64,000 nucleotides of DNA from Azospirillum sp. B510 (GTDB lineage Bacteria; Pseudomonadota; Alphaproteobacteria; Azospirillales; Azospirillaceae): contig NC_013854.1 of NCBI RefSeq assembly GCF_000010725.1, positions 1,455,001 to 1,519,000 of the forward strand, given 5' to 3'. How positions within the stretch are numbered: the first letter of the stretch is position 1; each line of letters begins with the position of its first letter. The notes below the pieces were generated by a model. It did not search any database, was not told the DNA's origin, and worked only from the letters and a program-made list of their open reading frames with translations. Shown piece after piece: positions 21,531-37,312 of this stretch. The translations under genes were made by a program, and so were the position numbers.

Positions 21531-21594
21531 AAAAAATAACCGGGCGTCCAAAGGAACGCCCGGTGCAGTCTTATACAGGGAGGGTTAGAGACAA
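21531..21594 (-). ncRNA. Putative FNR-activated small RNA, copy C
   Basis: About 64 nt on the minus strand. The 5' end (inferred at 21594) is UUGUCUCUAACCCUCCCUGU, shared with two RNAs at 29.4-29.7 kb (19 of 20 bases). After a short linker comes an intrinsic terminator: arms 21553-21564 and 21539-21549 on the plus strand with one bulge, then six U (21536-21531). A perfect FNR-type box lies with its centre 41.5 bases before the inferred start, and a -10-like GATACA (minus strand, 21607-21602) sits between. There is no ORF. It is placed between hisI and the RTX gene. The start site is inferred from geometry. Confidence 0.75.
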
Positions 21595-21628
21595 GACGAT
21601 GTGTATCCCCTTCGGTTGGGCTGTCGCC

Positions 21629-21642
21629 TTGATGTGGATCAA
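21629..21642 (-). promoter_or_regulatory. FNR/FixK-type box upstream of small RNA C
   Basis: On the minus strand TTGATCCACATCAA, i.e. TTGAT-N4-ATCAA, the full consensus for FNR/Anr/FixK proteins. Its centre (21635.5) is 41.5 bases from the start of the conserved RNA sequence, the spacing of class II activated promoters. Confidence 0.75.
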
Positions 21643-21699: not shown

Positions 21700-22134
21700 T
21701 CAACCATGGCTATGCGCATGCCCGCCATAGAGAATGGCGGGATCGGTCTGCACCTCCTGGATCGTCTCCAGCGTCCCGTTGCGCCAGGCGCGGTAGAAAC
21801 AGCTGCGCCGGCCGGTATGGCAGGCGACGCCATCCTGCTCGACGATCAGCAGCAGGGTGTCGCCGTCGCAATCCACCCGGAAATCCTTCAGGCGCTGAAC
21901 CTGGCCGGAGGTCTCGCCCTTGCGCCACAGCCCGCCGCGCGAGCGCGACCAGTAGCAGACGCGGCCGGTGGACAGGGTCTCCAGCACCGCGTCGCGGTTC
22001 ATCCAGGCCATCATCAGAATCTCACCGGTGCCGTCGGCCTGGGCGATCGCCGGCACCAGACCGTCCGCGGTGAAGCGGATGGCGGCCAGCACCTCCTCAA
22101 AGGCGGCGGCATCGATCGACGGTGCGTCCGTCAT
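21700..22134 (-). CDS. hisI: Phosphoribosyl-AMP cyclohydrolase
   Basis: 144 residues, the single-function HisI of histidine biosynthesis step 3 (opens the adenine ring of PR-AMP). Family motifs: LVPAIAQADGTGEILMMAWM, GRVCYWSRSRGGLWRKGETSG, the Mg-binding VDCDGDTLLL and zinc-binding CHTGRRSCFYR. No HisE domain is fused. It is 31 bases downstream of metC on the same strand, not in a his operon, as is common in alphaproteobacteria. Confidence 0.97.
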   Translation of the reverse strand: MTDAPSIDAAAFEEVLAAIRFTADGLVPAIAQADGTGEILMMAWMNRDAVLETLSTGRVCYWSRSRGGLWRKGETSGQVQRLKDFRVDCDGDTLLLIVEQDGVACHTGRRSCFYRAWRNGTLETIQEVQTDPAILYGGHAHSHG

Positions 22135-28236: not shown

Positions 28237-29322
28237 ATGGACCTGCTCAGCCCCCGTCCCAGCGTTGGCCAGATCAAGCCGTACCGTCCCATCCGCCCGC
28301 CGCGTGACGGCCGCCGATGGATCGACCTGTCGCTGACCCACAATCCCCTCGGCCCCAGCCCGTTGGCTCTGGATGCCTATTGCGAGGCGGCGACCCGGAT
28401 CCACCGCTATCCCGACTGGGACCAGGAACCGTTGCGCCACGCCATCGCGCGCCGCCATTCCATCGATGCCGAGCATATCGTCTGCACCGCCGGATCGGAG
28501 GAGCTGATCCATCTGGTCGCCCAGGCCTTCGCCGGTCCGGGTGACGAGGTGCTGTGCCATGAGCGGGGTTATCGCGGATTCCTCAAGGCGATCCGCGCCG
28601 CCGGCGCCACCGCGGTCGTCGCCGCCGAGCGCGACATGGTGGTGGATGTCGAGGCGCTGATCGACCGCGCCAGCGAGCGGACGAGAATCTGTTTCCTCGC
28701 CAACCCCAACAACCCGACCGGGACCTACATCCCGGCCGACGCGGTGCAGCGCCTGCGCGCCGGCCTGCCGTCCCACACGCTGCTGGTGCTGGATTCGGCC
28801 TATGCCGATTATTGCCGGCTGCCCGACTACAGCGACGGCACGGAGATCGTCGAGACCTCCGACAATGTCATGCTGATCCGCACCTTCTCGAAAATGCATG
28901 GGTTGGCGGGGCTGCGGGTCGGCTGGGGCTATGGTCCGGCCACGGTGATCGAGGCGGTGAACGCCATCCGCGGCGCCTTCAACGTCTCGCTGCCGGCGCA
29001 GTTGACCGCCGCCGCCGCCCTGAGCGATGCCGAGCATGAGGAGGCGACCTTCGCCCACAATGCCCAATGGCTGCCCTGGCTGTCGCGCGAGCTGGCGCGG
29101 GTCGGGCTGCGGGTCTATCCCAGCGTCTGCAATTTCGTGCTCGCCCGCGTGCCGACCGATCCGTCGCTCGGCACCCAGGCGGTCATCGACCATCTCGCCC
29201 GCCGCGGCATCCTGGTGAAGGCGGTGACCGAATACGGCCTGCCCGACTGCCTGCGCATCACCGTCGGCCGGGAAGAGGAGAACAAGGCGCTGGTTGTGGC
29301 GTTGGCGGAGATTCTCGGGTGA
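28237..29322 (+). CDS. Class I/II aminotransferase, histidinol-phosphate aminotransferase-like
   Basis: 361 residues, HisC/CobD-type fold I aminotransferase. Motifs: LSLTHNPLGPSP at the N-terminus, CTAGSEELIHLVAQAF (PLP phosphate side), FLANPNNPTGTYIP, VLDSAYADYC, and the Lys loop IRTFSKMHGLAGLRVGWGYG; the final Arg lies in CLRITVGREEEN. It transfers an amino group, in HisC from glutamate to imidazole acetol phosphate; aromatic amino-acid aminotransferase is a real alternative, since alphaproteobacteria often carry several HisC paralogues. The leader (28112-28236) holds two hairpins, GCGCGGCGC/GCGCCGCGC and ATCGGTCG/CGACCGAT, which could be regulatory. Confidence 0.85.
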   Translation: MDLLSPRPSVGQIKPYRPIRPPRDGRRWIDLSLTHNPLGPSPLALDAYCEAATRIHRYPDWDQEPLRHAIARRHSIDAEHIVCTAGSEELIHLVAQAFAGPGDEVLCHERGYRGFLKAIRAAGATAVVAAERDMVVDVEALIDRASERTRICFLANPNNPTGTYIPADAVQRLRAGLPSHTLLVLDSAYADYCRLPDYSDGTEIVETSDNVMLIRTFSKMHGLAGLRVGWGYGPATVIEAVNAIRGAFNVSLPAQLTAAAALSDAEHEEATFAHNAQWLPWLSRELARVGLRVYPSVCNFVLARVPTDPSLGTQAVIDHLARRGILVKAVTEYGLPDCLRITVGREEENKALVVALAEILG

Positions 29323-29386
29323 TGAAAGGGGGCGGGAGGGCTGCGGCGGAACGACGCGCGCAAACAGTCGGGAGACATACCCGCTT

Positions 29387-29400
29387 TTGATGCAGATCAA
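29387..29400 (+). promoter_or_regulatory. FNR/FixK-type box upstream of small RNA A
   Basis: TTGATGCAGATCAA, a full TTGAT-N4-ATCAA match. Centre at 29393.5, exactly 41.5 bases before the conserved RNA 5' sequence. A -10-like GATAAG (29422-29427) is correctly placed between them. Confidence 0.75.
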
Positions 29401-29434
29401 CGAAGGAGCTAGGTCAATCCGGATAAGGTCCTTC

Positions 29435-29496
29435 CTGTCTCTAACCCTCCCTGTATCACTGAGCCGGAGCATCCGCATGGATGGCTCCGGTTTTTT
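29435..29496 (+). ncRNA. Putative FNR-activated small RNA, copy A
   Basis: About 62 nt. It begins with CUGUCUCUAACCCUCCCUGU, identical to copy B and 19/20 with copy C. After AUCACUGAG-type linker sequence comes a terminator: 29464-29474 pairs with 29479-29490 around loop gcat with one bulge, then UUUUUU (29491-29496). There is no start codon followed by a sensible ORF, and the 20-mer is the only part shared with the other copies apart from the promoter, so it is likely the functional seed. It lies 112 bases past the aminotransferase stop, in its own transcription unit. 5' end inferred. Confidence 0.75.
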
Positions 29497-29557
29497 CTTT
29501 GCCGGTCTGCCGCGGCATGGTGCGGCTGCTGGAAGGCATCGACAAAGTATCGGCCGG

Positions 29558-29571
29558 TTGACATGCATCAA
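29558..29571 (+). promoter_or_regulatory. FNR/FixK-type box upstream of small RNA B
   Basis: TTGACATGCATCAA, one mismatch (T to C at position 5) from TTGAT-N4-ATCAA. Centre at 29564.5, 40.5 bases before the conserved RNA sequence; -10-like GTAGAC at 29593-29598. Confidence 0.65.
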
Positions 29572-29604
29572 CGCGGGAGGGGGCCGATCGGCGTAGACCT
29601 TTGG

Positions 29605-29663
29605 CTGTCTCTAACCCTCCCTGTTTCACAGGAGGCGCCGGTTCCGGAGCCTCCTGTTTTTTT
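29605..29663 (+). ncRNA. Putative FNR-activated small RNA, copy B
   Basis: About 59 nt, a tandem neighbour of copy A. It opens with the same 20 bases (CUGUCUCUAACCCUCCCUGU), then UUC, then a terminator whose arms are ACAGGAGGC (29628-29636) and GCCTCCTGT (29649-29657), ending in a run of seven T (29657-29663). The hairpin sequence is unrelated to that of A or C. It ends 25 bases before the 3' end of the converging DUF6460-like gene. Confidence 0.75.
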
Positions 29664-29687
29664 GTCCGGATTTCTCGGGAGCGGGAC

Positions 29688-29933
29688 CTACGAGTGCGTG
29701 CGCGAGCGGCTCCAGCGCAGCACCAGCCCGATCAGCGACAGCGGCACCACCACGACGGCGCCGATCAGGATGTAGGGCAGGGCCCAGCGGCCGGCGTCGA
29801 TCGCCAGTTCCGCGATGTCGCGCACCGTTTGCCAGCTGTTCGTCAGGATGCTGGCCGGATCGATGTGCAGGAACGACAGCAGGAAGCCGACGACGAAGCA
29901 CAGCACCAGCGTCCGGATGATCCATTCCACCAA
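29688..29933 (-). CDS. Small membrane protein, DUF6460-like
   Basis: 81 residues with two hydrophobic segments: IIRTLVLCFVVGFLLSFLHI (about 5-24) and YILIGAVVVVPLSLIGLVLRW (about 54-74), joined by WQTVRDIAELAIDAGRWALP. This resembles a small alphaproteobacterial inner-membrane family of unknown function (DUF6460, assigned with moderate certainty). It is convergent with small RNA B. Confidence 0.7.
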   Translation of the reverse strand: MVEWIIRTLVLCFVVGFLLSFLHIDPASILTNSWQTVRDIAELAIDAGRWALPYILIGAVVVVPLSLIGLVLRWSRSRTHS

Positions 29934-36931: not shown

Positions 36932-37007
36932 TGGCTCCCGGTGCTGGACTCGAACCAGCGACAAGCGGATTAACAGTCCGCTGCTCTACCAACTGAGCTA
37001 ACCGGGA
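36932..37007 (-). tRNA. tRNA-Asn (anticodon GTT)
   Basis: 76 nt with encoded CCA. On the minus strand it reads TCCCGGTTAGCTCAGTTGGT at the 5' end, an anticodon arm GCGGA-CTGTTAA-TCCGC giving anticodon GUU, and a GGTTCGAGTCC T arm. Acceptor TCCCGGT pairs with ACCGGGA, discriminator G. Confidence 0.97.
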
Positions 37008-37238: not shown

Positions 37239-37312
37239 TGGAGGCACGGGCGGGAATCGAACCCACGTACACGGATTTGCAGTCCGCTGCATCACCACTC
37301 TGCCACCGCGCC
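37239..37312 (-). tRNA. tRNA-Cys (anticodon GCA)
   Basis: 74 nt with encoded CCA. Minus-strand GGCGCGGTGGCAGAGTGGTG at the 5' end, anticodon arm GCGGA-CTGCAAA-TCCGT with anticodon GCA, T arm GGGTTCGATTCCC, acceptor GGCGCGG with CCGTGCC, discriminator U as required for CysRS. Confidence 0.97.

Follow-up and report, generated by a model that had tools for sequence, protein, structure and literature searches.

Multi-copy units with an FNR/FixK box and an anti-Shine-Dalgarno seed as candidate oxygen-responsive small RNA genes in Azospirillum and other Alphaproteobacteria

Three short units built on one plan are found in the genome of Azospirillum sp. B510 (7.6 Mb, seven contigs), all of them in the stretch of 64,000 nt analysed here (the window, contig C1 1455001-1519000): an FNR/FixK box is separated by 33-34 nt of unrelated sequence, which contains a weak -10, from a 20-nt seed, and an intrinsic terminator follows the seed after a few bases. 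Box, spacing, seed and terminators are conserved in relatives, and the seed is complementary to the leaders of two mRNAs. The units are best read as very small RNA genes under FNR control whose seed is anti-Shine-Dalgarno, and this reading is a supported one. We consider it likely that they encode FNR/FixK-activated, trans-acting RNAs of about 60 nt that block the translation of aerobic genes (ctaD and a peroxiredoxin gene) at low oxygen, and from the sequence we infer their transcription, its dependence on oxygen and FNR, in vivo pairing, the resulting repression and a possible requirement for Hfq or another RNA chaperone.

Anatomy and genomic context of the three units

The original prediction described two tandem units, each with a box, an identical 20-mer and a different hairpin with a T-run, and all of these elements were found at 29387-29663. 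Unit A (29387-29496) and unit B (29558-29663) lie on the plus strand; the third copy, unit C, sits on the minus strand at a distance of about 8 kb (21642-21532). It was absent from that prediction, as were the conservation in and beyond the genus and the probable targets. The box of copy A, TTGATGCAGATCAA followed by CG (29387..29400), agrees with 11 of the 12 specified positions of the FixK/FnrN consensus TTGANCNNGATCAANG (PMC4999443). Those of copy B (TTGACATGCATCAA followed by CG, 29558..29571) and copy C (TTGATCCACATCAA followed by GG, 21629..21642, minus strand) agree with 10 and 11, respectively, and a trailing G stands after the box in all three copies, as in the consensus. The spacer between box and 20-mer, put at about 33 nt beforehand, measures 34 nt in A and 33 nt in B, and the weak -10 expected within it was recognised by eye as TAAGGT in A (29424..29429) and TAGACC in B (29594..29599), with TACACA as its counterpart in C (21600..21605, minus strand). 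A TA step recurs near the -10 area of copy A in relatives.

The seed, which is the predicted 5' end of the RNA with a start placed to within about 2 nt, occupies 29435..29454 in A, 29605..29624 in B and 21575..21594 (minus strand) in C, where the first base is T for C and the rest is identical. FNR activates class II promoters from a box centred at about -41.5, the position also anticipated for these units, and counting +1 from the start of the 20-mer puts the box centres of A and B at -41.5 and -40.5 (-42.5 and -41.5 if the T of TGTCTC is taken as +1). In agreement with the proposed unpaired seed, its mean unpaired probability is 0.98 in the predicted RNAs of both A and B, where it is open, and 0.67 in that of C, where the predicted fold pairs part of it. 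The intrinsic terminators consist of a hairpin and T6 in copy A (29461..29496; z -3.3 for the whole RNA) and a hairpin and T7 in copy B (29628..29663), and that of copy C lies at 21532..21564 on the minus strand. Outside the units, copy A is preceded by a gene for a HisC-like class I/II aminotransferase (28237..29322, plus strand; TIGR01141 269.3 bits, just below the cut-off of 276.55) and copy C by the phosphoribosyl-AMP cyclohydrolase gene hisI (21700..22134, minus strand), while the ORF 3' of copy B is convergent (29688-29933, minus strand).

The exact 19-mer TGTCTCTAACCCTCCCTGT occurs three times in the whole 7.6 Mb genome, each time inside one of the units, and the 20-mer has three matches with up to three mismatches in the window vs none in 100 dinucleotide shuffles. 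The sole further place in the genome within three mismatches of the 19-mer, C1:1771253, is a probable target instead of a unit. The 11-mer core of the seed, CTAACCCTCCC, is also found at nine further places, which were rejected as extra units given that all carry a different 20-mer, CCCWYCCTAACCCTCCCCCG; no FNR box was seen by eye in the roughly 90 nt upstream of any of them. This CCCWYCCTAACCCTCCCCCG repeat (C1:270546, 835208, 1088063, 2591048 and 2979837; C2:894723; C3:364613; C5:171028 and 373810) is followed by a G-rich, roughly complementary stretch in eight of the nine copies, as judged by eye, and apparently has the 11-mer core in common with the seed by coincidence.

Conservation in the genus, the family and the class

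In line with the genus Azospirillum, a 4-kb piece of contig C5 has its best matches in plasmids of A. lipoferum 4B (89.8%), A. ramasamyi and A. oryzae. Relatives were gathered by the seed alone, with up to three mismatches, across 82 genomes of the family, 45 of them from the genus. Such a match is present in 44 of the 45 Azospirillum genomes, G040 being the exception, and in 56 of the 82 family genomes, some of the matches with two or three mismatches being coding or target sequence. A box and an intrinsic terminator accompany the seed in all 97 fetched units with at most one mismatch (77/77 exact, 20/20 with one mismatch), counts that do not represent independent events because the genomes are related. 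Occurrence of the 20-mer in unrelated contexts, named at the outset as evidence against small RNA genes, was thus not encountered among exact and one-mismatch copies. The TTGA-N6-TCAA box is perfect in 95 of these units and retains seven of its eight bases in the other two, its centres range from -39.5 to -42.5 (T of TGTCTC as +1), a class II position, and the same test shifted 200 nt upstream of the same units found no box at all. Box and terminator were also present at seven of eight fetched loci with two mismatches and at three of seven with three mismatches, where the failures had neither.

A search for the box-gap-seed pattern gave a consistent picture, with 57/82 family genomes vs 0/82 in the reversed control and a few of the listed matches judged by eye to be chance; the pattern was absent from 25/82, including 7/7 genomes of the genus g10 and 10/11 of g11. 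Box, seed and -10 area are common to the copies, the bases just after the seed less strictly so, and spacers and terminator stems vary, conservation being highest in box and seed. The GUCUC half of the seed hardly varies, if at all, among 114 units, which were picked for seed similarity. The number and orientation of units differ among genomes.

Beyond the family, a covariance model made from 33 units matched 11 of 385 class-wide genomes, three within the family and eight outside it, in four other families. Seven of the eight outside matches possess a box and a terminator-like end, and in them GUCUC precedes ACCCUCCC, ACCCUUCCC or a close variant; the weakest covariance match, G413 (E 0.005), has AUCUC for GUCUC. 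In the order of one outside-family genome, 7 of 17 genomes match the model, three of which were already counted. Two family members (G067, G069) had no match in the search of the 385 genomes, whose filters may lose weak matches. The class-wide pattern search returned 13/385 genomes (three in the family) vs 2/385 in the reversed control; among its ten outside-family matches only G228 has seed and terminator, G234 and G209 were rejected by eye, and the other seven showed no seed when the listing was inspected by eye. A scan of a genome collection yielded five stretches, of which three (L180-L182) are real units, identical in sequence to those of G447, G167 and G370 and named in the collection as alphaproteobacterial or Rhodospirillales metagenome-assembled genomes; inspection by eye suggests that L179 and L183 are chance matches. 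The pattern and covariance searches proposed along with the original prediction placed units in relatives across the genus, the family and other families of the class.

Candidate target leaders and the alternative readings

An anti-Shine-Dalgarno seed had been proposed, and its CCCUCCC is complementary to the Shine-Dalgarno sequence; going beyond that claim, GUCUC complements the bases adjoining the start codon. Taken as a whole, the seed is complementary to the stretch from ribosome-binding site to start codon in the mRNAs of two unrelated genes, ctaD and a peroxiredoxin gene. The near-match at C1:1771253 is the seed complement, and its other strand reads as the ribosome-binding site and start of the peroxiredoxin gene (Redoxin, PF08534). 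The ctaD gene of the same genome (cytochrome c oxidase subunit I, C1:1405893) passes the TIGR02891 CtaD/CoxA equivalog cut-off, and its product belongs to an aa3-type oxidase by family name. Predicted duplexes reach -29.5 kcal/mol for the peroxiredoxin leader and -23.7 for that of ctaD, whose site is without one T, and 79 background starts of the window gave a best value of -23.7 (equal to ctaD) and a median of -12.8.

Across the genus, GGGTTAGAGA-N(0-9)-ATG returned 46 rows in 38/45 genomes vs 4 in the reversed control, one site being listed twice and five rows being the antisense strand of RNA units. The 30 loci that were read comprise 15 peroxiredoxin genes, 10 ctaD genes, three other genes and two antisense strands of units. 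Leaders of both genes were then taken genus-wide by protein homology, which gave 44 peroxiredoxin loci (one close homologue in 44/45 genomes, G041 having a distant one only) and 45 ctaD loci, oxidase homologues of 39-46% identity being left out. GAGAC lies within 1 nt of the ATG in 38/44 ctaD leaders (L301 left out) and in 33/43 peroxiredoxin leaders, or 35 with the starts of L218 and L219 corrected (L281 left out).

The duplex test comprised 42 peroxiredoxin leaders (36 distinct), 44 ctaD leaders (31 distinct) and six second-copy leaders, G032 being left out of scoring for both main genes; two wrong peroxiredoxin starts may be included, which would only weaken the result. Mean seed duplexes were -22.5 kcal/mol for the 36 distinct peroxiredoxin leaders and -22.7 for the 31 distinct ctaD leaders, vs -14.9 and -14.7 for seeds permuted outside CCCUCCC, with 0/500 permutations as good for either; since both genes were picked via the seed complement, this measures the specificity of the match, and neither genome-wide significance nor a best-in-genome ranking. 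Six genomes (G032, G018, G028, G029, G011 and G040; L303-L308) possess a second ctaD-like gene with 84-86% identity to the query. Its mean duplex is -9.0 kcal/mol, with 400/500 permutations as good, and because this leader has no pairing site, some of the oxidase might remain outside the control of the RNA.

The strength of the sites varies within the genus. Duplexes of -22 kcal/mol or better were obtained for 37/44 ctaD leaders and 16/43 peroxiredoxin leaders; L218 and L219 score -29.5 from their correct starts, and one large species group has a peroxiredoxin site of just -18.6. Both leaders pair weakly in two genomes with the RNA (G018, -17.8 and -15.8; G023, -17.2 and -11.4), and in G015 the ctaD duplex is -16.0 and the peroxiredoxin leader has no GAGAC. 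G040, the genome with no seed match, has poor sites too (-10.4 and -15.6) and may belong to the same divergent group. A compensating change is possible in G017 and G042, where the seed variant UAAACC meets a peroxiredoxin leader with GGTTTAGAGAC and pairs at -23.1 with its own seed vs -18.8 with the canonical one, perhaps as one event given that the two leaders are identical. G012, in which both units are variant and yet the canonical peroxiredoxin leader is retained, counts against such a matched change.

The seed complement is not enriched in the B510 genome, with 43 wobble-tolerant matches of up to one mismatch vs 38 in the reversed control. Three of the 43 are the antisense of the units, and among the 27 others that were read (of 40), the peroxiredoxin leader alone holds the whole GGGTTAGAGAC. 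The looser AGGG-N(0-6)-GAGAC-N(0-3)-ATG is found at 24 places vs 2 in the reversed control, an unfair control because real start regions favour purine-ATG strings, and is too loose to name more targets. Three loci are nevertheless recorded. L318 (C1:2835511; GAGAC near the start codon, duplex -21.0 kcal/mol), which we take to be glutathione-transferase-like, and L325 (C3:523992; likewise with GAGAC near the start codon, -23.5), presumably RpoH-like, are possible further targets and leads only. L328 (C5:117549) starts with GAGAGAGACATG, has a duplex of -19.0 kcal/mol and presumably encodes an oxygen-using enzyme resembling 4-hydroxybenzoate hydroxylase. CGTCTTGAACCCTCCCTGT, recurrent in several genomes, was dropped as a target; its copy L091 lies within an ORF, by eye, and has no box. 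Another sequence met in the target search, GGGAGGGTGAGGGGT, is a dispersed repeat with 12 exact places in the B510 genome (e.g. C1:290990, C2:319094 and C5:162844).

The breadth of these start-site matches bears on an alternative that we regard as possible but doubtful, namely that the FNR-controlled RNAs are real while their seed is a broad anti-Shine-Dalgarno element dampening many mRNAs when oxygen is low, with ctaD and the peroxiredoxin gene not being the main targets. CCCUCCC pairs with any strong Shine-Dalgarno sequence, and the 24 AGGG-GAGAC-ATG places, which include the three loci just described, would suit such a role. Against it, permuting the rest of the seed with CCCUCCC fixed costs about 8 kcal/mol on both leader sets, albeit for genes picked by complementarity, and GUCUC is nearly invariant, among units chosen by seed similarity. 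Alternatively, the seed might serve as a sponge or a target in interactions with another RNA, or bind protein as a DNA element, instead of acting antisense. Several copies of identical sequence would fit this as well, and so would the 43 complement matches in the genome, but the exact complement stands beside the start codons of two unrelated mRNAs in many species and is kept whole by the peroxiredoxin leader only among the other matches read, which makes this very unlikely.

We find it harder still to see the units as FNR-dependent attenuators or leaders of their neighbours, or as transcriptional roadblocks, even though A/B and C lie downstream of the hisC-like and hisI genes on the same strand: each unit is closed by its own terminator, the ORF beyond copy B runs towards it, genomes differ in the number and orientation of their units, and box and seed are the most conserved parts. 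Chance, or a mobile repeat resembling a gene as the multiple copies might suggest, has a negligible probability in view of the box at 97/97 close seed copies and of units that share box, seed and -10 area while differing, unlike a mobile repeat, in spacers and terminator stems.

The reading as trans-acting RNAs that silence ctaD and the peroxiredoxin gene would work as follows. Each unit would be a free-standing gene of a regulatory RNA of about 60 nt. At low oxygen, an FNR/FixK-type protein would occupy the box at about -41.5 and transcription would begin at the seed, ending at the hairpin and U-run, such that the RNA would consist of little beyond an exposed 19-nt seed and a terminator. The seed would pair with the Shine-Dalgarno sequence, the spacer and the bases up to the AUG of ctaD and the Redoxin-family peroxiredoxin and block ribosome entry; blocked ribosome binding is the simplest action since the predicted pairing spans all three parts. 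Several copies would raise the RNA dose. Given that the seed matches start sites of an oxidase and a peroxide enzyme, the RNAs probably turn those genes down at low oxygen. While FNR would turn on low-oxygen genes directly, the low-affinity oxidase and the peroxide defence would be shut down via the RNA, by which FNR would gain an indirect repressing arm. The logic seems sensible, as both would be less needed once oxygen drops.

Known small RNAs and possible meaning for the oxygen response

The family had not been recognised in the original prediction, and at Rfam gathering scores the whole window contains only two tRNA genes (36935-37007 and 37242-37312, minus strand). In permissive Rfam scans the most relevant near-misses were SorX and mmgR, other matches being taken for chance. 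FnrS, for which Rfam holds a model, was compared via Rfam only and was not listed among matches up to E 10 at 29370-29680 or around copy C. In Escherichia coli, FNR activates the small RNA FnrS, which at low oxygen represses genes of aerobic respiration and oxidative stress (PMC8139620). Box and position in the units fit an FNR-dependent promoter, and the complementarity to the ctaD and peroxiredoxin leaders would suit a similar repression. The units differ in their predicted length of about 60 nt, their multiple copies and a seed with which the predicted RNA begins.

SorX (RF02784) of Rhodobacter sphaeroides scores 17.7 bits for both copy A and copy C, far below the threshold of 46.6 bits, and has AC-CUCCCUGU and a GC-rich terminator in common with the units, whereas its Rfam consensus is without the GUCUCUAA part. 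RNase E releases it from the ompR-1 3' UTR (PMC8625941), in contrast to the units, which follow hisC-like and hisI genes and have promoter-like boxes of their own. SorX still deserves notice as a lead, since ChIP-seq placed an FnrL site in the presumed promoter region of RSs2461 (PMC4263372) and SorX originates from that locus (PMC5502269). The mmgR/suhB model (RF00519) gives 16.6 bits for copy B and 15.6 for copy C, below the threshold of 41 bits; a single-stranded CUCCCU ahead of the terminator is shared, but the consensus has an additional 5' hairpin.

Other alphaproteobacterial RNAs resemble the units in different ways. The alpha-r14/NfeR1 RNAs likewise have an invariant anti-Shine-Dalgarno seed and varying stems, which is also true of the CcsR ("cuckoo") RNAs of this class. 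The seed of the units is ACCCUCCCUGU in a 5' end predicted to be unpaired (A and B) instead of the CCUCCUCCC in hairpins by which alpha-r14 and CcsR are recognised. In alpha-r14 the CCUCCUCCC motif is found in three hairpins, and LsrB and NtrC control NfeR1 (PMC10746234). PcrZ of Rhodobacter sphaeroides is a low-oxygen-induced small RNA that depends on PrrA and, possibly indirectly, on FnrL, and it targets photosynthesis mRNAs (PMC8139620), so that by description it is like the RNAs predicted here in being an alphaproteobacterial small RNA tied to low oxygen but differs from them in its targets.

Parts of the seed or of its complement were not found spelled out in the literature text searched, nor was a description of the present RNA family, in a coverage that leaves out most subscription papers, preprints and supplements. 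The main text of a small-RNA study of Azospirillum brasilense Sp245 does not contain "Fnr", and the study may hold reads from such RNAs (PMC7685610); passages of a further article, examined for FnrS-like RNAs, have nothing on the present family (PMC11475020). On balance, we lean slightly towards an RNA family that has not been named before, is driven by FNR/FixK, exists in multiple copies and spans several families of the Alphaproteobacteria. With a bare 19-nt seed and a terminator, it would silence the aa3-type oxidase and the peroxiredoxin as the repressing arm of oxygen control, and SorX and mmgR, under other promoters, could be distantly related to it.

Azospirillum is a nitrogen-fixing partner of plants, and its nitrogenase needs low oxygen. 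Accounts of how alphaproteobacteria switch from the aa3 oxidase, with its low affinity, to oxidases of high affinity usually centre on transcription factors; if the proposed reading is true, Azospirillum would use a dedicated RNA for the repressing half of this switch. The family would then be an alphaproteobacterial counterpart of FnrS, with no kinship detectable by Rfam scans, and a very small and easily tested regulator with named candidate targets, for which the second ctaD-like gene, lacking the site, would provide a natural control.
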